Assembly (NCBI GenBank): GCA_036245805.1
Contig: BTRK01000006.1
Span: 23,344,365 to 23,408,364, forward strand
DNA: 64,000 nt
Source: Pristionchus mayeri
Lineage: Eukaryota; Nematoda; Chromadorea; Rhabditida; Neodiplogasteridae
Direction: 5' to 3'
In this document: piece after piece, positions 11,301-24,498 of the stretch
Position numbering within the stretch: position 1 is the first letter of the stretch
How the letters are laid out: each line of letters starts with the position of its first letter
Program-made: the position numbers and the translations under genes
The notes under the pieces: generated by a model
Seen by the model: only the letters and a program-made list of their open reading frames with translations
What the model was told of the DNA's origin: nothing
Database searches by the model: none

Positions 11301-14300
11301 CGGTAGTCGAGGATACGGTACCTCTCCCTTGGCAGTGACGACGGTAAGAACATCTCCCTTCGTCGACTTGATCTCAGCCTGCAATGGATTAGAGTAGAGT
11401 TTCGTAAGAATGGGTAGTTAGTACTACTTGAATGAAATGCTCCTTAATCAATCAATATTGTCAAATGAAAGCGAGAATCAAAGTTTCTCGTGAATCGCGG
11501 GTAGGCGGGCTAGTAGCACTTGGTAGGCGGCCGCGTAGCATGTAGTAGCCGCCTAGTAGCAAGTAGTAGGCGACTAGTAGCAAATGGTAGGCGGCTAGTA
11601 GCAAATAGTAGGCGACTAGTAGCAAGTAGTAGGCGGTCGTAGCAAGTTGTGGTCGGCCTACTGGTATGTTGTGGTCGGACTAGTGGACAGGAGGATTCTG
11701 CCTTGCGCGAGTATGCGGACTACTAGTCACTAGTAGGCGGCTACTAGCCAATGGACCGACCAGTGGTCTAGCGGTAGCCGGCTAGTAGCCGGTAGCCGGA
11801 CCAGTAGTCCGTTTTGGTATAAGACAATGGGAGACTACATTTAAACCGTTTTCAAGTGGGTTCCAGTCGGTACCACGCTGGTTCCGGGTTGGTTCAAGCA
11901 TTGTGCAATATTGGTTCTAACCTGTAACAAGCGTGGTGCCCACATAGTACTAGTGCGGAATCAGCGTGATAAGCCTAGTGCCATTGTGGAATCACTGTGG
12001 AACCAAAATGGGATCAATGTGGTACCAACGTGGTACCACATGGGTACCACGTTGTTACCAATTTGGTTCCACGATGGGTACCAGTGTGCTATCTGCGTGA
12101 TGCCCATGTGGTACCACGATGATACCACATGGGAATTAGTGTGGTACCACCGTGGTACCACATGGGAATCAGTGTGGTACCACGATGGTACCACGTGGGA
12201 ATCAGTGTGGTACCACGATGGTACCACGATGGTATCCATCGTGGTACCACACTAATTCCCATGTGGTACCATGATGGTACCATCATGGTACACATCGTGG
12301 TTCCATCGTGGTACCGCGTTGGTACTACACTGGTGTCAACATGGTACCACGATAGATACCAGTGAGGTACCACCCCTGCGTCGTTGGAACACTGGTAACG
12401 CGCTGGATCCGAGCAGGTACCAGGATAGGCAATATAAATGTGACTTTACGGATAAACACTCGTGTAGCATACACGAGTGGATAAAATGGTACAACGCAGA
12501 TAGGTCACTGGTTTTGGGTGTTCAATGTGCTGGTACCACGAAGGCTTAGGGATTTTACTATAACCACGTTGGCGTGGCAACCAGACTGGCCTATATTTCG
12601 ATTTAAGAACATTGTGTTAATATGTGTCGGACTCTGGTTTGAGGAAAGAAATACATTAATGAGTTTGAATGGATCGCACAGGATCACTTGTCATTCAATT
12701 GCTGGCGGATTGAATTGTCGGAGTACGGTAGTTGTGCCATTCATGCTAATTTAATTAATATTTAACTTTAAGAAGGCTAGCAATTAAAGTCTTGCTTATC
12801 TATGCTACACGAGTGTTTATATAAATGTGAATAGTACAAAATATTGCATTAACAATATTTCAAAAATAGTCATCTCGAAAATACGCAGTTCGTGATACAG
12901 CAGTTTGAGTTTTTTTCTTACAGTACACCTCTCACCTTTTGAACATGAACTTCGGCGCCTTTGACTTGTGCCGTTGTTCCTCTTCGAATTTTGATGCTAT
13001 TTCGCCCGAATCTTTGTTTGATTGATGGAAATAACCTTCGCCGACACGCGTGGGGCGGTTTCGACATTATTTTTGCCTTATTTGGTCGTGATTTTCATCG
13101 AATTTACGAGTTGTGTTCCTATTTCATGATTGCGTCAATCTTTTGAATATTTTCAGGCCTGTTTAATGCTCAAGACGTCTTTTTCAATGTTGTATTGAAG
13201 GAGGGAGATATAAGAAGAAAAGTGAGTATTATAATCCACCTTTTTTAAACGGGAACATTGACTTAACGTTGTTTCGAAGCGCAATCTCGCCATCTTTACC
13301 AAATGTTACGTTCTTTGCAATAATTCGTACTTTTTCAGGTTTATTTTATATCAAGAGCGATATTATCAATTGTTATTTAATGGAGGATTGTTTCTAACAA
13401 TAAAGTGAGTATTTAAATATATTATTTTTTAAACGGGAACATTTAAAATGTAGTTTGTTGAGCCTAGTTTTGTTTTGGCTCGATGTTTACCGAATTTATT
13501 ACGATATACTGAGTGATTTGGCTACATATGAAGTAATATGTATATAAATCAGTCGTTATTAATTATTATTACTTCATTAGCATCGGGATTGGCGGGGCGA
13601 ACAAAAGCAAAACGTTTGAGCGTTTGAGCGTTGCGTTTGGGCGCACAGGCTTGATTTCTCCCCGACTTTTGTTCTAGTTTTAATATTTCCTTCTTTTGCA
13701 GGTTTGATCTATATTTGATTCACAAGGATTATCAGAGGAAGAAAGGAGATTAAGGTGAGTATTTAAATTTATATGTTTACTCGGCAAAGTTGGTCCAAGT
13801 GTGTTTGAGCGTGCAGGCTTGATTTCACTCGTGACTCATTCTTGTTTAGTATTTCCTACTTTTGCAGGATTGTTGTATATTTTATTCAAGTTTAATTATA
13901 TCAAGGAGTATCAGAAGAAGGAAGGAGGGATAAAGTGAGTATTATTATCAATACTTTTATACAAACATTAGTTTAACTTTGCTCCAAAGCTTAATCACAG
14001 CGGAGTAACTCTAACGCGTTGGCGTTATGTATGACTATAACAAGTTTGTGTTCTACTGCATCACTCTGAATATATATTCTGACTAGTTATTAATGAGTTT
14101 CACTCTTTGCCTACGGTTCAAAATTGCATGGCTTTATGCAAATATAATTATGAGAGCCTGGAGTGTGTTTTAGAGTGTAAGCGTGACCTCTTTCCCGACT
14201 TTCATTCGCATGTAAATAATATTTTGTAGTTTTGCAGGCTTATTTTATATTCGACTTGAGTTTAATTATATCAAGAATTATCTAACGAGGACGGAGACTC

Positions 14301-17300
14301 GAAGTGAGTATTTTTTAAATATATTTACAATTAAAAAAACAATATTATTTGGGTTAGTTTTGTTTGATTGTGGCACTGCATTATTATTGTTATATTTTAC
14401 GCGATATATTGAGACAGTAATTTTGGTACAGTTTGTACAGTATACAGTAGCATCACAGTTGATCATACTCTACTCATTATGGAATATGTATTGAATAGGC
14501 AGCGCTAGGGAGCACAAGGTGTCTGAGATGGTATAATGGAAAAAAAACGTCTAGAAGGACGGCGTCCGACGTCCTTTTCAGCCCGAGAGTGGAGGCAGGT
14601 GGAGTGATGACGTCTCATAGGAAAAGTATTCTGAGGACGAATATTAGAAAAGCAGGGGGGGCACGTATGGATGAAAATATATTAAATGAAAGTGTTGGTA
14701 ATAGGTTAGAATCGTGTTTGGTTTACCGTAGCAAGGGAACTGTTCAACTACCACCATAGTTGAATCGTTCGGCTATGTGTAGTTTGCACAATATAATCTA
14801 GTTAATCGGATGACTATTGATATTTCCTTCAGGAAAGGACTTGTTCTCCACAAGTAGTGAAGTTTATCGTCGATTTTTTCTCGAATTTATTGTCTTCAAC
14901 TTACACAGGTACGCTGCCATTTATATTTATAAAAATGGATTGTTTGTATTTACATTTCGAAAAAGTCAAAACTAAAGAGTAATTGGTAGTTTATAAACCA
15001 AGTTGTGGTTCCGACGAAGTACCATCTCCCTAGTACCCTAGAGAGCGCATTTAGTTTGCGACGTTTGGTCTCTCCTGAGTACTGTAGATCGACTATCCAT
15101 CTCAGCCGTGACGTTTGGTCTCTCCTGAGTACTGTAGATCGACTATCAATCTCAGCCGTGTTTACCACTCCATCCCTATCGTGATGGGGGCACGTTGCCC
15201 GAATGTTAGAGTTGAGTCAACTAAATTTGGACCGATATTTGTTTTAAAATTGATGACAATTTTTTTGCGGATACAATGTGTACACAAATTATCAGGGCAA
15301 TAGCGTGTATAGTTACCAGTGCAAGGCGAGAGAATGGAATTGTATTGGTCGTGATTTCTTTGGGTTTAATTTTAAAAAATGTTAGTAGGCCATGCAATGT
15401 CTAGAATGTTACCATTATTTACCGTACATAGTCGATCATACAGTAACATCAGATTTCGAAATACACACCCACTTTGTCTCATTTAAAATTAGACATTTTA
15501 GCTCTGTGATGCAATCCCGTGTGCGCCCGCGCGTTCCTACGTGCATAGCGCTTGGTGGGCGTGTGCTATCCGCCTTCTGAAAAATATCTTGGTGTATGAA
15601 AAAACTTTTTCGATACCGTATCCTTCCGAAATCTATTTTGGTTTTTTAACCCAAATCTTTCAACTGGGTTACTTATCAATATATGCTGTGCTCGTTGAAC
15701 AGTACCGTGCTACCGTAATCCACACGATGCAGTCGATCACTAACATTTTAAAATAATTTGTTTATCTGATAATGGTAGCTATGTAGCACAGATTTTATAC
15801 GGTAGTGGACACAATGTTTTTACTAGTTACGGTATGTCTTAACATACCGTAACTAGTAAAAACATGTTGACCGTCACCGCCTATATTTTGTGTATTACTT
15901 GCTATGAATTGATTTCATTACTGTTTTATTTATTGTGTTTTTTATACTAATTTCAGATGAATTGTGACTGCAATGAACTTCATTGTTCCAAGCGTGTGCT
16001 CTTCCAACAAGGTAAGTGATGTCGATACACCAAGTCTCATCATTTGAGATTAGAACATCAGTTTCCTCCTCGCTCGGTGATCGACAACTGACGAATGAAG
16101 AGTTCACGGGCAACTGTTCCGATAATGAAATGGACGGTGATCTCGAAGACGACCAATGTGTACACAGGTGTGCCTACTTTTGCATGTAGAGTAAATATTG
16201 GTGCAATAATTCCCGTTCATGTGCAACAATTATAGTGATGGTCCATCTGCTATGGATTACTCGCTTGCGAGTGAACACGGAGAAAGTGAGCCGGATGCTC
16301 AAACGGAAACTAAATGTTTGTGTATTCCGTACGGTTGTACATGAACATGTTTCGTATAGTGTCGGCTGCCGATAGAATTCTATGTGCATCGGCATTCTAT
16401 CTCGCACATAACATGAGCAAAGACGCATTCGTTGATCTCCAACGATTGAGCCCGTCTCCTATTCTATTTTCTACGGTATACTTTTGCATGGTTTACTTTT
16501 TTTTCATTGATTCCTTCTATTTTATCGACGTACACATCTTTAAGGTTTCCAAAATTCTGAAAAACGCGAATGCAGAGTGTGAAAAAATCATTCGCTGCTT
16601 CGGATGTGGTGCATCTCTCGACAGCAGTCGATCAGTTTGCTGCTCGTAAGCTCTCACATTTGTGAGTGTACATTTTGTTATAGGTCTCAGCAGCTAGCTG
16701 CATTATCGAAGGTATCTATCCGCGAGGTATACTCACGAATTGTAAGGAGGAACCTGGATGAAATTATCGCTACTCACGATTTGTTCCATCAGGGGTTTGT
16801 CTCAATAGTATACTTGAAGTTCAAAATGTTTAGGCTGCCTACCAGCGGTCTTTCAAGAACTGATCGCTACAAGCAAGTGATTGAAACGAAAAATGAATTC
16901 GCTGCTCGTATTATTCGAACACCCATCCTGCTGAATGCTGATGGTTTCAGCAAGAGTGGATGCAGGTGTGTGTGCTCAATTTCTTATGTCATACCCTCTG
17001 GTAAACCAACAATCTTTTAGAGGCGAAGTATGGCCCGTGTTCTTCGCTCTTGTTGACTTACCTGATCGGGTGCGATGGAGGGCTTCCTCGTACGGTCTGC
17101 CGAGATGTGCAACTCTACTGAGCTGCCGATTCAGTCACTCAGTCGCAAATGCGCTCTTTCACGGTATACAACACTTTTTGTGTCTGTTTACCTTGAAGTG
17201 ACTACATTATAGGATTGCACGAAGAGTTTGTCGACCTGTGCACGAATCCTGTTAGATTACACCACAACGGACAAGAATTCAGCGTTTGCCCCACTCATTT

Positions 17301-20300
17301 GTGTCTGACATCGCAGTTAGTCATTGCAGTGCATGATGATGTTAAACTATTATTTAAGGCGACCGTGAAGATTTTCGATCTCGATCACTGGGCTCTCTCC
17401 AACGCCGAGGGATGCTCAATGTGCACCACGCGAGCAACACGCGACGGGTCGAGGAATGTTTGGGAGTTACGCCCTTGCACTACGCGAGAGTTGACGGACC
17501 ACTGTAAGTAGTTGAATGATGCGCCTTAAGCTAATGTTTCCTTCAATGCTAGCTCCTGGGGAGGCATCCAAACTGGCACCTCTTTCACTCGTTCGCGCCG
17601 AGTTTTTACACAATGACGCTTTCGGCTATATCAAGAGCATCGTGAGAAGTTTGTTTAATGCTTTTTGCTTGAAGGTTAAGAACACTATATCAGGGATATT
17701 TGGTGCTCCTGATTCAAGTGCATTCGGCAAGATGCTTTTGCGACGAGGGTCGACACTTATGTGCTCCGATAGTGTATCAAGCGCACGCCTACCAACCTCC
17801 AGGTGCAGTTCCTGACACATTGGATCGTTTCATTGATTACCATCTTCAGAGTACGAGATCTCCGCGTACCTACGGAGAATGGGAGATCATTGTGCGGTTC
17901 GGAATATGCAGTGTTGAGGCAACACTGCTATCACCAAATAGTGTTTGTTTTAGCTGGCAATGACAATTTTGCCCGTGGCCTGCCTCAATAGAGTCTTCGA
18001 AAACGATGTTGTAAACTCACTCTGTATCCTTCTCTCGATGAAAATGCGATTTGATCACGACCCGGATACTCTACAGGTAATGTATTTTGTCTCTGTGTTT
18101 ATTTAGTTAAAATTTGTTACAGAGAGCGTCTGCTGTCTATGACCAAATGATTAATGTGATCATAGAAATGTGGGATCAAGGATTCGGAGCTGCCTGCCGT
18201 ACACTCAAGTGTCATGTTCGCCATCAAATCATTATATAACACATTATATAACTCAACTACTTATAGCTGTCCCTCGTCCACGGCGCGCGGGACTATAACA
18301 TGTGGGGAACATGTGTTGAGCTTAGTGCGAATTCATTTGAAAGTGCTAATAGAATCTTGAAGACGAATATGCCCATGACGCTACAGCACGATCTACTTCA
18401 CCGTCGGTATTTAAATATATGCTATTTATTTAAGTTAATAGTTTTTTTTATAGATTTCTCCAATCCCAGTACGTTCTCGATCTCCTGTATTGCCGTCTCG
18501 ACGATGAATCGTGTGATGATGTCAAGGAGGAACTGTTTCGATCCATCGACGCACTCTCACATACGTCTACTGTTGTGCGCGGAGATTCGGTATGTGTTGC
18601 ATTCGACAGTAAATTTAGTTATAATCTTTGTTTTATTGTTTAGCTTTCGAGCCGTTTCAAGAATATAACTGGTATCAATCGGACAATTATGAGCTCTGCA
18701 ACGAGTGTGTGGTAAATGTATGAAGAATAAACGAAATCATTTCAAATGATTGCAGGCACCGGTGCGTGTTCAGGAACGTGATGTACTGCTCTGAGGAGAG
18801 CCAGAATTCCACCAAGAGTGATCATTCGATCGTCTTGTATCGAAGAGGCTGTTCAGTGAAGGTTGGGGTATGCCAGTTCTTCCATAGATGCTACATCAGG
18901 TACAGTTTTCCACTGATATTTAAAATCCATCCTTTCTAGGAGAATTTCGCGCAGTGCTCAAACAGTTGATAGTTGCGTCACCGTTTGGATCCATTTTGGC
19001 AGTGACGAGAGCAAACCCGCTCTACCAATGTTTGGCTCAAATCGATAAACTCGACTGGATTTGGCGGTGCAATGGAGTGATGAATCAGTATGACAACATT
19101 TCTACTCGAGATGTTATCACTCATTGCATTCGCATTTCTTTCGATGGAAATGATTTTATTGTTGCGCTGCCTCGCATGAATGTACATATTTAATGTGATG
19201 TTTGCTAAAGAATTCGTCTTTATTCCCTTGTTTCATCGTCGTTACCTGTTTTTTTCGGTAGTACTCCGATGATATGTACCTCTATTCAAATTCGCGTTAA
19301 CTAGAAAAAATAGTATTTAGAATGACTTCTATGGATCTAAAGTCTGCGATCAAGATACTTGCGGACAATGGGATATCCGCCGATGAAATCATTAAGATGA
19401 CTCGAAAGAACTCTGTCTTTGTAAGTGCACAGATTAAGAGGATCGAAAAGTAAAAACCAAGTTCCACTACTTTTAGAATGCGTTGTGGGGAGTCGAGGGG
19501 TCCTCGAACACCAGTTCTTCAAGAGGCTCGCCTACCTATTCCCCAATTTCTGCAAGTCCTGCAGCGAATGAGATCCCGAGTAACTCATGCCTGATCGCTC
19601 CACGATCCGTAAGTGTTTAGCAAAAATTGATTGGTATCGCGTTGTGAATACTTCGATGTCCATTGTAATATACTACAGATCCGCCAGTATCTAGAGTCAC
19701 CTCTTTCCTTCGAAACTCTTACGAAAATATCGAAGATGTCTGCGAATGACGTGAAGGTGAACCACAGTAGAAACACCATAGTTACTCATTACTTCCATTT
19801 TTTAGGAGATTGGAAGTTCGTTAACAATCGCCCCCATTCTCGACATGAGCTCTTTTAATCAGCAATTAAGCGAAGTATCCGAATCCCCGATCAGATCTCT
19901 TCTTGAGAGTATAATCACTGCTGTATGTTTGTTTTTTCCTCGATTATTTGACGGTTCCGGGCTAGATCGTAATATATATAGTTCCAGCATCAGCTAGGCG
20001 CACTTTTTCAAGAAGATGTGATGGAACGTCTCAAAGGAAAAGTGGACGCGCTAGAGAAGAGAACCGATACGCAGTTGGTTAGTAAAGAAGTCAACGTATC
20101 CCTAAGTATTACACTATACTTTGCAGTCCCGAACGAAAGCGAGAATTTCTGTTCTGGAAACTGCCTCCATCAAGGATCCCATAGTTAACGTCCTCGGATC
20201 CGTGAAGAACAGATCAATAAATGTTCTACAGTTACTGAAGAATCGATTTCATGAGTTTAGTACGCTATGCACTCCTAAACTCGTTGAATGTCTACTGGAC

Positions 20301-23300
20301 GTAATCATAATTGAGGCAAGCTTGTTCATGTCAAACGGTTACAATAAATATTTCTCAGTGTACAACGGACGATTACGCTTCAACGATCTCGATGGAAAGG
20401 AAAGGGATGTGTGGAGGCTTCGGTGGGACAAAACTATTCTCAATTCTTGAAGGTTATGATTTTGTGGGACTGGGGAAGGTTATCGTTTTCTCTTCCAGAG
20501 ATCTTTAGCGTTCTCCTAGGAGTTTCCTCATCCGATCATCTTCAATACCGTGAATTTCAAGCGGACTTTCGCGATGCTACAAAAATTGTTCTGTATGTTG
20601 TCCATCGGAATTAACTCAATTTAGAAGATTGTTTAGAAAGCGAATTCGTTAACGATATCAAGCCAGGAAGTACAAGATCCGAGTGTGCAGTGGAGATGTG
20701 ACGGAGAGAACGCAATTCAGACCATTGAAAAGGTGAACGCGTTTTACTCTTTTTTTAAAGTTTTAAATTTACACATCGGGTCTTCTCATCATCTTTCGAT
20801 CTCCGATGAAGAAGGAGAGGATGTATCGATGGAAAGGCGAGTTTGGGAGATTAGGACAACCAGAATGTTTTTGGTGCACCCTTTGCATATTTTTTTTTCG
20901 GATGGCAAACCATTTGTACTTTCATATTAAATATAATTTTCCCAGATCCAATTCACTTGCGAGGGAAGCCGACGAGTGCAGTGGAGGATCGCCTTCCAGG
21001 AGAAGGCGAGTTTAGGAGGGGAAACATGATCATTAGGGGTGGGGGTAGGATGAAGTTAGTGCAAAATCTCGTATTATTCTGTGGGTTGGCCCGAAAATGT
21101 ATTTTAGTGGCTAACCGTTTGTGCTTTTATTATATATATTCTTCCCAGTTCCACGCCAATCTCGACAGATTCAGACGAGTACAGTGCGGAACATGGATCT
21201 TCTCCCAGCTGCAGGCGAGTTTGGAAGGGAACATGATCATGGGGGTTGGGATAAAATTAGTTAAATTAATCATTCTTTCGTCTGTGTGTTGATGCGAAAA
21301 AGTATTTTAGTCGCAAAACATTGAGAGTACTTTCATAATAAAAATAATTTTCCCAGCTCCTCTTCACTTTCGAGGGACGCGCACCAGTCGGGTCAGGAAC
21401 ATGGCTCGCCTTCCAGGAAAAGGCGAGTTTGGGGAGCGAACATACTAATTTGGAGCGGTAGATAGGCTAAAAATGTCACTCCTAATTAATCTTGCATTAA
21501 AATCTGTACTTGCATTAAAAATCTAATTTTCCCAGTTCAACATCGCTCTCGATGGGCGCGGGCGACGGCCGTCGATCACCTTTTCAAAGAAGGTGAGCTT
21601 GGAGGGGAATAAAATGGTTAGAGGGAGAGTGATAGATTTAGTTTTCTAGTAGCACTATTCTTCGGCCTATGCGAATTTGGAAGCTGAAAAAAATATAAAA
21701 TATATTTTTATATATATCTGAAAAATTGCGTTATTGCTATTGTGTTCCAGGTCCTACTCACGACCAAAGAAGGAAGTCTGCGAAAATGAGGAAAACAGAA
21801 GTAAGAAAGTTCACTAATACATGTCAATTTAGTTATCAGAGATTGATGCTTAGTTTCAAAAATGCGGGAATTGCCTACTAGATCAACCATATTTTTTTTA
21901 CAGAAACAGATATCCTGAAACTGGAATGGTTGTAATAATAAAAAAATGCCCGAAAAATATTATAATTGATAATTCCATAGATGTGGCTGCACCTTGGTTG
22001 TACACATTTTTTTACTTTAGGAGGGGTACTGATTATAATTGAATACTGCCTGTTTGTTTATATTTGTTGAACGCGCATATTTGCAGGATTCCTCTCGTCA
22101 AGCCAAGATCCCTACGTACGACCAAGCCGAAGGTCACCGAACACAGGCGAGTACGGACGGGTGCCTTATTTTCGAGCCGGGGAAATATAATACAAATTAT
22201 AGTTTAAGTATTTCTTCTGTATCAGATTGACTGTCTGGTTATTGCAGAGTAGGCTAAAGAGACATAATAATTGTGCAAGATTGCAAATGATATGCTCGGA
22301 CCAGGATTCGAACCCAAGTGTTCCGCTTACCGGGCAGATATCATAACCACTAGACCAGTGGTTATGATATATATCCTTTGCAATCTTGCACGATGAGTAT
22401 TTCTTTACTACATGGGGAAGTTAGGGGAGGGGGGGGGGGGGGGGGTAAAAGGGAAGCTGTAAAACTGTTCCACACATAAAAGCAATCCCACTTTAAATTT
22501 CTAGATATGTTTACTGTATTTCCTAGAGTACCTGAAAAAAAGTTACCGTAATACTCATTTGGAAACATAAAATTGCTAATTGTAGAATGACGGGACGACC
22601 ACCTACCAGGGCCAAGTAATGATGGAGGATTCGGAAGAATTCCACTGTTTATAATTAGATAAGTTCTAATCCCTTGTTAAATAGAATCTTGATAATGAAA
22701 TTAATTCGTTGTGAAATAGTACCATTCTTTGTTCATGTTGTTTTTTCTCAAATTTAAAATACATGTAACATCACAAATTAACACTGTCGAAAAAATGCCT
22801 GTAGCATCACTAATTAGCACTGTTTGCTTGACTGTCGATTAACTTGTAATAGTATTTCATGATTTGTTGTCTTGTTCCATGAGACTGTGATATTGCCAGA
22901 AACAAATGATAATGAAGATTGTACCATTTAAAAGTGTCGTTGTAAAGGTGCGGGAAGAACCCTGACCAGAGGGAGCTGGATGGGGAAGGGAAGGGAAGTG
23001 GAATTGGGGTGGACGGCTAGTAGTCACTAGTGGGCGGGCCAGTAGTCCCTAGTAGGCGAGCCAGTAGTTCCTAGTAGGCGGGCCAGTAGTCACCAGTAGG
23101 CGGGCCAGTAGTCAGTGGTAGGCGGCTAGTGGCGGTGTCTCGCCGCCTACTACCTGCTACGTGGCCGCCTACTAAGTGCCACTGGCCCGCCTACTCGCTA
23201 TTCACGAGTTGAAGAGATTTTAGATTCAATTTCAATCCATTTTTTGCAATTGGGAGAGCAATTGGGATGAGTGCTGCGGCACAATGAACTCTCTCCTCTC

Positions 23301-23500
23301 TCTCACCGCAATAAATCCCTCTTCTCCATCTGCGATCCACACATTCTTCTTCGAGTCGAACTTCTTCGTCTGAGCAGCCAATGCCTGCACTCATCAATTT
23401 TAAATGTTCAATGTGTAATCATAGTTCCCATATCTCTTTGTTTCCGTACCTGCTCCTGACTCTGTCTCAGAAACTGCCATCCCTCATCTTGTTCCATCAT
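3224..23500 (-). CDS. Muscle-type myosin heavy chain (class II), partial at 3' end
   Basis: Actin-based motor of muscle thick filaments. The start is the ATG at 23500, directly behind an ATTTCAG acceptor, and opens [17 protein letters not shown]. Exon 2 is 23307-23384 and exon 3 is 11322-11378, separated by an 11.9 kb intron. Then follow the P-loop (10466-10533), switch I (9878-10014), switch II (7463-7515), the actin-binding and converter region (about 5586-7373), an IQ-type lever (5320-5540) and heptad-repeat rod exons down to 3224. About 40 exons, mostly 50-140 nt, are visible, covering about 1190 residues. The family is about 1950 residues long, so roughly the last 750 residues of rod lie beyond the left edge. 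Nematodes have several paralogues (UNC-54 and the MYO proteins). The motor is clear but I cannot say which orthologue this is. Single exon boundaries were read by eye. Confidence 0.95.
7463..7515 (-). other. Myosin switch II exon
   Basis: The minus strand encodes [16 protein letters not shown], the switch II motif DIAGFE with the aspartate and glutamate that couple to switch I. The next exon, about 7285-7373, reads [20 protein letters not shown], the start of the relay helix. Confidence 0.93.
7932..9030. repeat. About 1.1 kb foldback element in a myosin intron
   Basis: The arms are near-complementary around a centre at about 8480. Left-arm sequences GGCACCATCGAAAAATGGT (about 7972) and the TTTGATCATTTCCC segment return as reverse complement at about 8970 and 8840. 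The outermost few dozen bases match only with gaps (GCGTAAGA on both sides). The centre is a polypyrimidine/polypurine segment. It lies entirely in the intron between the exon ending [20 protein letters not shown] (about 9137-9215) and the exon [17 protein letters not shown] (about 7858-7908). Open frames inside are mirror artefacts. Probably a non-autonomous DNA element; no clear target duplication was found. Confidence 0.88.
9878..10014 (-). other. Myosin switch I exon
   Basis: The minus strand encodes [16 protein letters not shown] followed by IRIHFN, the switch I loop (NNNSSRFGK) that senses ATP gamma-phosphate. All key residues (Asn, Ser, Ser, Arg) are present, so the motor looks catalytically intact. 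It ends ...EKSRVIKQ, which is conserved in class II motors. Confidence 0.93.
10466..10533 (-). other. Myosin P-loop exon
   Basis: The minus strand reads [20 protein letters not shown] and then two lysines. This is the Walker A nucleotide-binding loop GESGAGKT, diagnostic for myosin motors. The exon is bounded by a CAG acceptor at the high end and a GTAGG donor at the low end, and continues into the exon at about 10306-10415 ([15 protein letters not shown]). Confidence 0.95.
11487..11815 (+). repeat. Left terminal inverted repeat and subterminal repeat array
   Basis: After the first 70 bases the motif GTAGTAGGCGGCTAGTAGCA is repeated with variation about ten times to about 11800, first as direct copies of about 25-30 bp and then with inverted forms (GTCACTAGTAGGCGG, AGCCGGTAGCCGG). 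In CACTA/EnSpm elements such arrays are binding sites for the element's own accessory protein; here that role is inference. Confidence 0.85.
11850..12425. repeat. Self-complementary GGTACC satellite
   Basis: More than 30 copies of GGTACC or close variants occur in 575 bases, in units such as GTGGTACCACGATGGTACCA with ATGGGAATCAGT spacers. Because each unit is nearly its own reverse complement, the array can fold on itself and leaves long open frames on both strands, which are artefacts. The KpnI site GGTACC recurs throughout. It lies just inside the left subterminal array of the large transposon. Confidence 0.9.
12452..12820. mobile_element. 369 bp element with 19 bp perfect inverted repeats
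   Basis: ATAAACACTCGTGTAGCAT at 12452-12470 recurs exactly, reverse-complemented, at 12802-12820. Within it the ends CACTCGTG...CACGAGTG resemble the CACT...AGTG termini of CMC-type elements. The left copy also forms a second small hairpin with CACGAGTG at 12472-12479. No transposase fits inside. Probably a short non-autonomous element nested in the large transposon. Confidence 0.65.
13157..14303 (+). repeat. Array of five exon-like cassettes upstream of the transposase
   Basis: Five segments of 53-67 bases share the layout TTTGCAG or TTTTCAG acceptor, a related body (for example TTTAATTATATCAAG in the last two), and a GTGAGTATT donor. They occupy 13157-13221, 13339-13404, 13702-13754, 13868-13934 and 14238-14303, at pitches of about 182, 363, 166 and 370 bases. 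The intervening sequence is related too (TTTGAGCGT...CAGGCTTGATTTC). Their lengths do not keep a reading frame and several contain stops, so they look like duplicated untranslated leader exons of the transposase transcript. That they are spliced is inferred from the sites alone. Confidence 0.6.
15059..15158. repeat. 51 bp tandem duplication
   Basis: GACGTTTGGTCTCTCCTGAG and the following sequence through ATCTCAGCCGT occur twice in direct tandem with one mismatch. Nothing else is seen in the roughly 1.6 kb between the leader cassettes (end 14303) and the transposase start (15957), apart from AT-rich sequence and the hairpin at 15814-15865. Confidence 0.85.
15814..15865. repeat. Perfect 24 bp hairpin
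   Basis: Arm 15814-15837 (ATGTTTTTACTAGTTACGGT then ATGT) is exactly reverse-complementary to 15842-15865, with a 4-base loop. Weaker complementarity extends outward (GGTAGTGGACACA against TTGACCGTCACC). It lies about 90 bases before the transposase start inside the large transposon. It could be a transcript-end or leader structure or a tiny foldback insertion. Confidence 0.85.
15957..19193 (+). CDS. CMC/TNP2-type transposase, multi-exon
   Basis: Probably catalyses excision and insertion of the surrounding element. The start ATG (15957) sits directly behind a TTTCAG acceptor; exon 1 (15957-16011) encodes the Cys-rich [19 protein letters not shown] second exon (to about 16167) is acidic. Next come a Cys-containing exon ([15 protein letters not shown]), a helical region ([20 protein letters not shown]) and the core: [10 protein letters not shown], then [20 protein letters not shown], then [14 protein letters not shown]. 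This order, DG, WP...DLP and GC..C, matches TNP2-like transposases of CACTA and related elements. Downstream, [20 protein letters not shown] matches their FE-containing block. The last exon ends [19 protein letters not shown] and stop TAA at 19191-19193. Exon joins were placed by eye, so a small defect could be missed; no inactivating break is obvious. The family is recognised by motif, not by search. Confidence 0.72.
19322..22257 (+). CDS. Second transposon gene: coiled-coil protein with Ser-rich repeat exons
   Basis: Function unknown. It starts [20 protein letters not shown] just behind a TTTAG acceptor, 129 bases after the transposase stop. Exons follow encoding a Ser/Pro-rich stretch, a region [19 protein letters not shown], a short coiled coil ([19 protein letters not shown]), and a folded-looking domain ([20 protein letters not shown], about 20121-20450). 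Then come short Ser/acidic exons, four of which (20946-21592) are near-duplicates. Further exons follow at about 21750 and 22088. The last exon (22248-22257) would give R-V-G-stop. In CACTA elements the second gene (TnpA-like) binds subterminal repeats; by position and partner this is the natural analogue, but no homology is shown. The gene model, especially the 3' half with GC donors, is provisional. Confidence 0.55.
20946..21592 (+). repeat. Tandem array of four duplicated mini-exons
   Basis: Four exon-like units at 20946-21005 (60 nt), 21149-21214 (66), 21357-21422 (66) and 21536-21592 (57) each follow a TTCCCAG acceptor and end AG before GCGAGT (first three) or GTGAGC (fourth). All lengths are multiples of three, so any number can be included without a frame change. 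In the shared frame they encode related peptides, for example [20 protein letters not shown] and [20 protein letters not shown]. The intron parts are also related (ACATGATCAT after the donor). A diverged earlier copy lies at about 20780-20840 ([18 protein letters not shown]). Pitches are 203, 208 and 179 bases. Confidence 0.75.
22273..22391 (-). mobile_element. 119 bp inverted-repeat element containing a tRNA-like sequence
   Basis: GTGCAAGATTGCAAA (22273-22287) is exactly reverse-complementary to 22377-22391. Between them the minus strand reads a tRNA-like sequence with consensus pol III boxes: A box TGGTCTAGTGG (about 22347-22357) and B box GGTTCGAATCC (22303-22313). An anticodon-like arm lies between (loop CCGGTAA, C instead of the usual U at position 33). 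The 3' end GGTCCGAGCA has no complementary 5' acceptor strand, so it is not an intact tRNA gene. A second inner hairpin ATATCATAACCACT...AGTGGTTATGATAT overlaps the A box. Best read as a tRNA-derived, SINE-like or foldback element. Confidence 0.7.
22429..22445 (+). repeat. 17-base poly-G tract
   Basis: An uninterrupted run of 17 G near the right end of the large transposon. The 600 bases from here to the right subterminal array (about 22995) hold no gene that I can see; they are AT-rich with no long matched frame. Confidence 0.95.
22995..23208 (-). repeat. Right terminal inverted repeat and subterminal array
   Basis: Five direct copies of a unit of about 30 bp (GGCGGGCCAGTAGTC plus CTAGTA variants) lie at about 23010-23130. 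They are followed by the terminal repeat, which reads inverted to the left end: GCCTACTAAGTGCC, CCCGCCTACT and finally TTCACGAG at 23201-23208. The last myosin intron bases and the acceptor-side exon 2 donor (23301-23306) lie only about 100 bases further on. Confidence 0.85.
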
Positions 23501-23561: not shown

Positions 23562-24498
23562 TGGAACACCAATTTTTCAATAATATGGTATCCGGGGTAC
23601 TTTTTCATGCTGATGACGATGGTCAACTTCATTTTGCATAATTGACCTCTAATGAAGCACTATTTCACCCGTCGAAATAGCGAAATTTCCGGTTTATTTG
23701 ATTTATCAGGGGTAAAACTTTCTACAAAAATTTGGAAATTTGTTTCCCGAGGTGGTTTTTCATTCTCTACACGATGGAATGGTGAACAACCCCGTTTGCA
23801 AGTTCCTTCATTGGTGTTCGGATTTTATTTATGGCTAAAACTCAAAACTAGAAGCCGGCATTGTGTGTGCATGTAAAGTATCTATTGCCTAGGCCGTAAT
23901 CCGATTTTTGTGCAATTTGAAGTATGGGATTTTTACTTATGCCCATTTTAGTTTTCCGATTTCCAAAACCGAGTCGCGGGTTCGATCCTCGCCGCTGTTC
24001 AGGTTTTGCAATATAGCCATCAGTGATACGAGAGTGGGTGAACAAGTGTGCTCTCTTGTTCGCTGATTAGATAGTGAGAGATGAGTAGTTTTGGAAATCG
24101 GAAAACTAAAATGGGCATAAGTAAAAATCCCATACTTCAAATTGCACAAAAATCGGATTACGGCCTAGGCAATAGATACTTTACATGCACACACAATGCC
24201 GGCTTCTAGTTTTGAGTTTTAGCCATAAATAAAATTCGAACACCAATGAAGGAACTTGCAAACGGGGTTGTTCACCATTCCATCGTGTAGAGAATGAAAA
24301 ACCACCTCGGGAAACAAATTTCCAAATTTTTGTAGCAAGTTCAAAGTTCCCTGATAAATCAAATAAACCGAAAATTTCGCTATTTCGACGGGTGAAATAG
24401 TGCTTCATTATAGGTCAATTATGCAAAATGAAGTTGACCATCGTCATCAGCATGAAAAAGTACCCCGGATACCATATTATTGAAAATTTGGTGTTCCA
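23562..24498. repeat. 0.94 kb foldback element upstream of the myosin start
   Basis: The arms TGGAACACCAA... (23562) and ...TTGGTGTTCCA (24498) are near-perfectly complementary over about 450 bases each. The centre at about 24020-24060 carries GGTTCGATCC, the core of a pol III B box, but no matching A box. The element sits about 60 bases upstream of the myosin ATG, so it lies in the promoter or 5' leader region. No target duplication is obvious. Confidence 0.9.

Follow-up and report, generated by a model that had tools for sequence, protein, structure and literature searches.

The stretch of DNA analyzed here, which we call the window, comprises 64,000 nucleotides (C6:23344365-23408364) of the 290.8-Mb genome of Pristionchus mayeri, a nematode of the Diplogasteroidea, and contains an 11,722-bp element (positions 11487-23208) lodged in an intron of a myosin heavy chain gene. 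The element is very probably a DNA transposon that moved by cut and paste and belongs to the CMC (CACTA-Mirage-Chapaev) group, with Mirage as its nearest named relative and with unusual CT..AG ends; the copy in the window, antisense to its host gene, is now defective. The family is new as far as our searches reach and familiar in kind, and the divergence between its long copies is low. Much of this architecture had been proposed in an earlier note on the same DNA: an element of about 11.7 kb making up 98 percent of a myosin intron that would otherwise have about 206 bases, inverted-repeat ends of about 70 bp that are not of the CACTA type, subterminal arrays at the ends, and two genes, the second included, on the strand opposite to the host. 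All of these features have held up.

The host intron

The myosin heavy chain gene lies on the minus strand and the element-bearing intron is near its start. With splice sites read directly, the intron spans 11379..23306 (minus strand; 11,928 bp), between an upstream exon at 23307..23384 and a downstream exon at 11322..11378 (both minus strand), the exons being recognized from their sequence and from matches to Myosin-4 and Pfam. The element accounts for 98.3% of it (11,722 of 11,928 bp); what is left amounts to 206 bp, or 204 bp if one copy of the 2-bp duplication is removed as well. Joining 23307 to 11378 puts GFIA next to AEIKSTKGD, and the 109 spliced myosin residues align to the solved Myosin-4 6qdj_A (E 9.5e-44) without a gap across this junction. 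The same residues score 47.8 bits against the Pfam model Myosin_N (cut-off 27) and 25.1 bits against Myosin_head, the latter under its cut-off of 33.3 in a query that holds only the first 29 positions of the model. Since the element lies inside the intron and is antisense, both of its genes being on the plus strand, myosin is presumably still spliced across it.

Element ends and target site duplications

The left terminal inverted repeat (11487..11556, plus strand) starts with CTCGTGAAT and has similar counterparts in other copies, and the right one (23139..23208, minus strand) agrees with it in 60 of its 70 positions. Within the 64-kb window, CTCGTGAAT and ATTCACGAG have one occurrence each, and these mark the element's two ends. 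On either side stands the dinucleotide TT (11485..11486 and 23209..23210), read at the window site as the left and right copies of a target site duplication.

Ends were read by pattern in 20 + 16 genome stretches fetched around family matches, yielding 15 independent two-ended copies: the window, C, E, F, G, M1, M2, L063, L064, L065, L066, L067, L068, L069 and L070. M3, an inverted duplicate of M2, was counted once together with it. Left out of the count were M4, for being embedded in a larger palindrome, a copy on C3/C58 (L029, L030) with a damaged left end and non-matching flanks, and loci with at most one readable end (B, D, H, I, the C1 element, L061, L062, L071 and L072). Identical 2-bp flanks border 11 of the 15 (the window, C, E, F, G, M1, L063, L064, L066, L068 and L070), and a 3-bp match borders none of them (0/15). 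From the base composition of the window, a 2-bp match is expected by chance in a proportion of about 0.065 per copy, which gives the observed 11 of 15 a P of about 1e-10; the duplication typical of the family is therefore most likely 2 bp.

The letters of the ends vary slightly: copy B has CTCGCGAAT, copy M2 has CTCGTGATT, and L068 has a right end that departs further from the usual form than those of the other copies. Looking for further copies that share both ends, as the earlier note had advised, has thus revealed a mobile family. The note had also named two findings that would be fatal to the idea of an element, namely other copies with different ends and ends that are ordinary satellite. 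What we encountered in the loci read was the same ends with small variations only, and no such satellite.

The transposase and its closest relatives

The transposase gene (15957..19193, plus strand) has, in our inferred exon model, many short introns, mostly of about 40-70 bp, and it is broken in the window copy. In sister copy B a script reads the gene without interruption as far as the stop (797 codons including the stop, two likely introns being read as coding). The 751-residue row 1 of our alignment A1, a reading of copy B in which one exon boundary was chosen by hand, contains, in order, the motifs NADG (D214), FVSD (D304), CSMC (C(2)C from 325), HLSLVH (H(4)H from 504) and FESGN (E529), numbered along that row. 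Judging from motif order and context, D214, D304 and E529 are the probable catalytic residues. By this motif reading, copy B has the signature that defines the CMC group, a D-D-E triad whose last two members enclose C(2)C and H(3-4)H; the D-D-C(2)C-H(3-4)H-E set is given for EnSpm, Mirage, Chapaev and Transib (PMC12730594). The group is further characterized by target site duplications of 2 to 5 bp, into which the 2 bp of 11 of the 15 copies fall, and by CA..TG ends, a feature of most cases that is not strictly defining and that is absent here.

DUF1258 is the only Pfam family that matches the transposases of this family at E<0.01. It does so in all three aligned members (3/3), with E ranging from 6.3e-8 to 4.2e-3 in the matching sequences, all of them under the curated cut-off of 33.1 bits. 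The scores are 23.2 bits for the window copy (read through), 24.4 for B, 18.5 for P0001, 22.0 for P0002 and 17.1 for a 149-residue piece of B, and the best of all, 32.9 bits, belongs to a diverged relative on C1. DUF1258 (PF06869) corresponds to Mirage and is fairly closely homologous to Transposase_21; the proteins that carry it are found in animals, mostly in nematodes (PMC3985635). No match to Transposase_21/TNP2 was obtained in Pfam at a maximum E of 10, a search in which the HMMER filters drop most matches above about 0.1. With respect to the spliced TNP2/CMC-type transposase that had been proposed, the CMC part is upheld by the motif order of copy B; the TNP2 part is not, there being no Transposase_21 match and Mirage, through DUF1258, being the nearest named group. 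The lack of any TNP2-like hit, which the note had regarded as another fatal finding, is thus real if Transposase_21 itself is meant; taken broadly it does not hold, since a sister copy has the CMC motif order.

A search of 5.8 billion proteins at E<=0.01 gave a single match, from P. mayeri itself, and none outside the species; a profile search of 5.8 billion proteins at E<=1 gave three (best 7,992 candidates scored), all again from P. mayeri. The P. mayeri proteins matched are all named hypothetical and two are labelled partial. Distant relatives can be missed in such searches because they need shared five-residue words and a limited number of candidates is considered.

Lesions of the window copy

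The transposase gene in the window has two deletions, one of 7 bp after 17292 and one of 2 bp after 18885, and at both places all four sister copies examined (B, C, D and E) keep the longer form. The 7-bp deletion falls just before the codon of the putative second catalytic D, so that in the window copy the VSD is out of the frame that enters this exon; the 2-bp deletion affects the last exon but one of our model and changes the frame downstream of it. The loss at 17292 is derived, because the diverged C1 relative retains the motif and reads SIYSFISD. To judge from its sequence, the transposase of the window copy is disabled and this copy is now defective. The earlier impression that both genes look largely intact does not survive the comparison, as the transposase has two frameshifting deletions that are absent from four sisters; nor does the description of an intact-looking autonomous element, since the transposase gene it would need is disabled.

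We also considered, and rejected, reading the intron that follows the 7-bp deletion as coding sequence: the window copy is then open at that place, yet this neither brings the second D back into frame nor affects the second lesion.

Family copies in the genome

All copy counts from the genome search are lower bounds. The four sister copies are 95-98% identical to the window copy over long blocks. In the transposase region the identity between the window and the four sisters is 98.6-99.2%, gaps aside (differences of 0.83% to 1.38%), and over the ten possible copy pairs the substitution differences range from 0.71% to 1.74%. Substitutions private to the window number 10 in 2,674 columns of the transposase block and 17 in 3,511 columns of the right block. 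Each sister has decayed in its own way. Copy B, on C3, has an open transposase reading and has lost its right end and most of its second gene. Copy C (C6:31.43 Mb) has a contracted left repeat, a nested 1,572-bp foldback, small insertions and deletions (indels) and a 16-bp deletion. Copy D (C6:45.4 Mb) has lost its left tip, holds a nested 6.3-kb element and is missing a 3' part, and copy E, on C4, has internal deletions, with about 490 bp missing. Complete ends and an open transposase are found together in none of the five subfamily copies read (window, B, C, D and E).

Copies F and G are relatives of 8-8.8 kb that have the family's ends and are about 96-97% identical to one another over most of their length. 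They resemble the element over about 2 kb on the left (about 81%, in part 87%) and 184 bp on the right (93%), and neither blastn with the element nor tblastn with three transposase pieces finds a transposase match in them. Similar ends are also carried by short foldback copies of about 120-190 bp.

These observations suggest the following history. A DDE transposase would have cut the element out at its CTCGTGAAT ends, and the excised element would have been joined to a 2-bp staggered cut in a myosin intron of about 204 bp, a step that could have created the TT flanks observed today. The comparison with four sisters shows that two small deletions destroyed the transposase of the window copy, probably after the insertion, and the copy could now move only with enzyme supplied by another one. 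The short foldbacks and the two 8-8.8 kb relatives F and G would be passengers of the same machinery, because they share its ends and duplications.

Several other repeated structures were noted at or near these copies. The foldback in copy C (G000:C6:31438311-31439882, L034) is 1,572 bp long, has arms of about 94-96% and occupies an intron of the second gene. At G000:C1:36110045-36117671 (L050) there is a near-perfect palindrome, with 3,689-bp arms of 99.8%, that contains two mirror copies of the diverged transposase relative. The 6.3-kb element nested in copy D lies at G000:C6:45406606-45412946 (L036, L037). It is of the Chapaev type and resembles the myosin-intron element in residing in the same genome and belonging to the CMC group; it differs in its CAC..GTG ends and its uninterrupted open reading frame of 703 residues, which scores 95.2 bits for DUF1280 (cut-off 25), the domain of Chapaev (PMC3985635). 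In the window, a foldback element of about 940 bp, with arms 98-99% complementary, is situated at 23562-24498, just upstream of the myosin start codon. A query that included it had 228 genome matches, most of which, among the matches listed, fall in the foldback. Rfam gave no matches over the window at gathering scores, and megablast against plasmids gave none.

The second gene and the arrays

The second gene (19322..20450, plus strand; about six exons, 279 aa) is open in our model, in which the exons are inferred. Between the window and copy E it differs by 13 substitutions and no indel, introns included. Copies C and D have indels relative to the window, so that one of the three sisters holding all or most of the gene is free of them. 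No relative was detected at E<=0.01 among 595 protein candidates, and in Pfam there were only sub-threshold matches. A comparable gene content is known from Sly1-1 of Neurospora, a CMC element of 11,534 bp in which the transposase gene is accompanied by another gene whose function is not known. Sly1-1, however, comes from a fungus, its description implies a duplication of 3 bp or more, and homologues of its two genes are divergently transcribed in Chaetomium, whereas the two genes of the P. mayeri element are on one strand (PMC4592977).

Sequence repeat analysis places two arrays on the left, a subterminal one of 21-bp units GTAGGCGACTAGTAGCAAGTA (11501..11647) and one of palindromic 11/33-bp units GTGGTACCAC (11997..12349). 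On the right there is a subterminal array of 22-bp units (23015..23125) that forms a hairpin with the right inverted repeat (all three on the plus strand). Two further arrays consist of predicted exon-shaped units. The left one (13157..14303, plus strand) has five units, each with an acceptor such as TTTTGCAG, a body of 53-67 nt and the donor GTGAGT. The right one (20946..22146, plus strand) also has five, with lengths of 60, 66, 66, 57 and 60 nt, every one a multiple of 3; their donors are GCGAGT (GC-type) in four and GTGAGC in one, and their starts are spaced 203, 208, 179 and 551 bp apart. A scan of the element for such units (acceptor, 53-67 nt, donor) gave 12 hits on the plus strand, representing 10 distinct units, and 0 on the minus strand. 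On 200 first-order Markov sequences derived from the element the same scan gave 0.055 hits on average and never more than 3. The units are not independent of one another, since they are members of two tandem sets. The left exon-shaped array is at least partly common to F and G, and its first units also occur in the C1 element. Treating the right array as a continuation of the second gene was tried and discarded, as joining the two gave no convincing frame.

Weighing the alternatives

A number of observations weigh against the assignment to a Mirage-like transposon inserted in, and spliced out with, a myosin intron. No DUF1258 score reached the curated cut-off, at most 115 of the 253 model positions are covered, and P0003, a C-terminal fragment, has no DUF1258 match. 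Exons were modelled on consensus splice sites, with a simple script and hand choices, rather than on transcripts, and a single-sequence structure prediction of P0001 gave a predicted local distance difference test (pLDDT) value of 35.7, which provides no fold evidence. In four of the 15 two-ended copies the 2-bp flanks are not identical: M2, L067 and L069 agree at one of the two bases and L065 at neither, and the proportion becomes 11 of 16 if the C3/C58 copy is added as a miss. Of these 15, 14 have CT..AG ends (L067 has CA on the left and AG on the right), as against the CA..TG of most CMC-type lineages (PMC12730594). No empty site was seen in the assembly: among the matches listed, for which 40 of 532 candidates were scored, the myosin flank is covered by the window alone. 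Finally, AATAAA occurs 11 times on the myosin-sense strand of the element against the 10.2 expected from Markov sequences, and there is therefore no sign that polyadenylation signals have been depleted on that strand.

It is possible, though in our estimation unlikely, that the element represents a separate, deep branch of CMC alongside Mirage, CACTA/EnSpm, Chapaev and Transib, whose distinguishing features would be its CT..AG ends, its duplications of 2 bp and its long subterminal arrays. The unusual ends of 14 of the 15 copies speak for this, as do DUF1258 scores that are all under the cut-off and the failure to find a protein outside P. mayeri either at E<=0.01 or, with the profile, at E<=1; on these last two points the element does differ from Mirage. 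On the other hand, it approaches Mirage in having DUF1258, albeit under the cut-off, as its sole family at E<0.01, in three of three aligned members, and in the D-D-C(2)C-H(3-4)H-E order. Mirage elements give 2-bp duplications. Moreover, CMC relatives with other ends and 2-bp duplications already exist, namely PlavakaA, with ends TGT..ACA (PMC12730594), and TRC, that is, SmTRC1 of Schistosoma and its insect relatives. The latter are likewise animal CMC relatives with non-CACTA ends and a 2-bp duplication, seen in 7 of 14 copies of SmTRC1, an element that was recognized as an intron consisting of inserted DNA; they differ in their CCC ends, 4.5-kb length and Transposase_21 domain, none of which the P. 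mayeri element has (PMC1636069). In the parts of the literature that were available, CT..AG ends are not mentioned for a Mirage-like element, Repbase and the described Mirage ends being outside this comparison, and the titles and abstract openings searched name no element of P. mayeri. The earlier suggestion of a new CMC lineage thus draws some support from the ends, the missing outside relatives and the sub-cut-off DUF1258 scores, but it is not proven, because one weak affinity and one genome are insufficient.

A more elaborate version, which we find doubtful, would have a separate CMC lineage with CT..AG ends and 2-bp duplications, equipped with an extra protein and, on its coding strand, the two exon-shaped arrays, in which the in-frame cassettes on the right could vary the second protein by splicing.

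That we are dealing instead with an ordinary CACTA/EnSpm element having a TNP2-type transposase seems very improbable. The plan of two genes with subterminal repeats, together with the CMC motif order, would agree with it. In maize, En/Spm has two genes with subterminal repeats. However, CACTA/EnSpm elements have CAC..GTG ends and 3-bp duplications (PMC12730594), whereas the ends here are not CAC, the duplications are of 2 bp with no 3-bp match in any of the 15 copies, and Transposase_21 does not match even at the permissive E of the Pfam search.

We give hardly any credence to the idea that the window copy is itself active and autonomous, and regard it as refuted for the present assembly. Its inverted repeats are both complete, its second gene is open and it has few private substitutions (10 in the 2,674 columns common to five copies), but these features are outweighed by two frameshifting deletions that no sister has, one of which throws the presumed second catalytic D out of frame. 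A satellite or chance inverted repeat around unrelated genes, suggested by ends that are built of tandem 21-22 bp units, can be dismissed, because copies elsewhere in the genome stop at the same boundary on both sides, in most cases next to 2-bp duplications, and the end motif is found nowhere else in the window.

Significance

Taken singly, the main features of the Mirage-like element in the myosin intron are already in print: an intron made of a CMC relative (SmTRC1), a two-gene CMC element of 11.5 kb (Sly1-1) and ends other than CA..TG (TRC and PlavakaA). No known rule is overturned. What P. mayeri offers is a case that can be dissected, a very large DNA transposon antisense within a muscle myosin gene, and a set of sister copies that display the decay of a family, with complete ends in one copy and an open enzyme gene in another. 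The 2-bp duplication rule can be used to annotate this family, and its CT..AG termini would broaden the known ends of Mirage-like elements.

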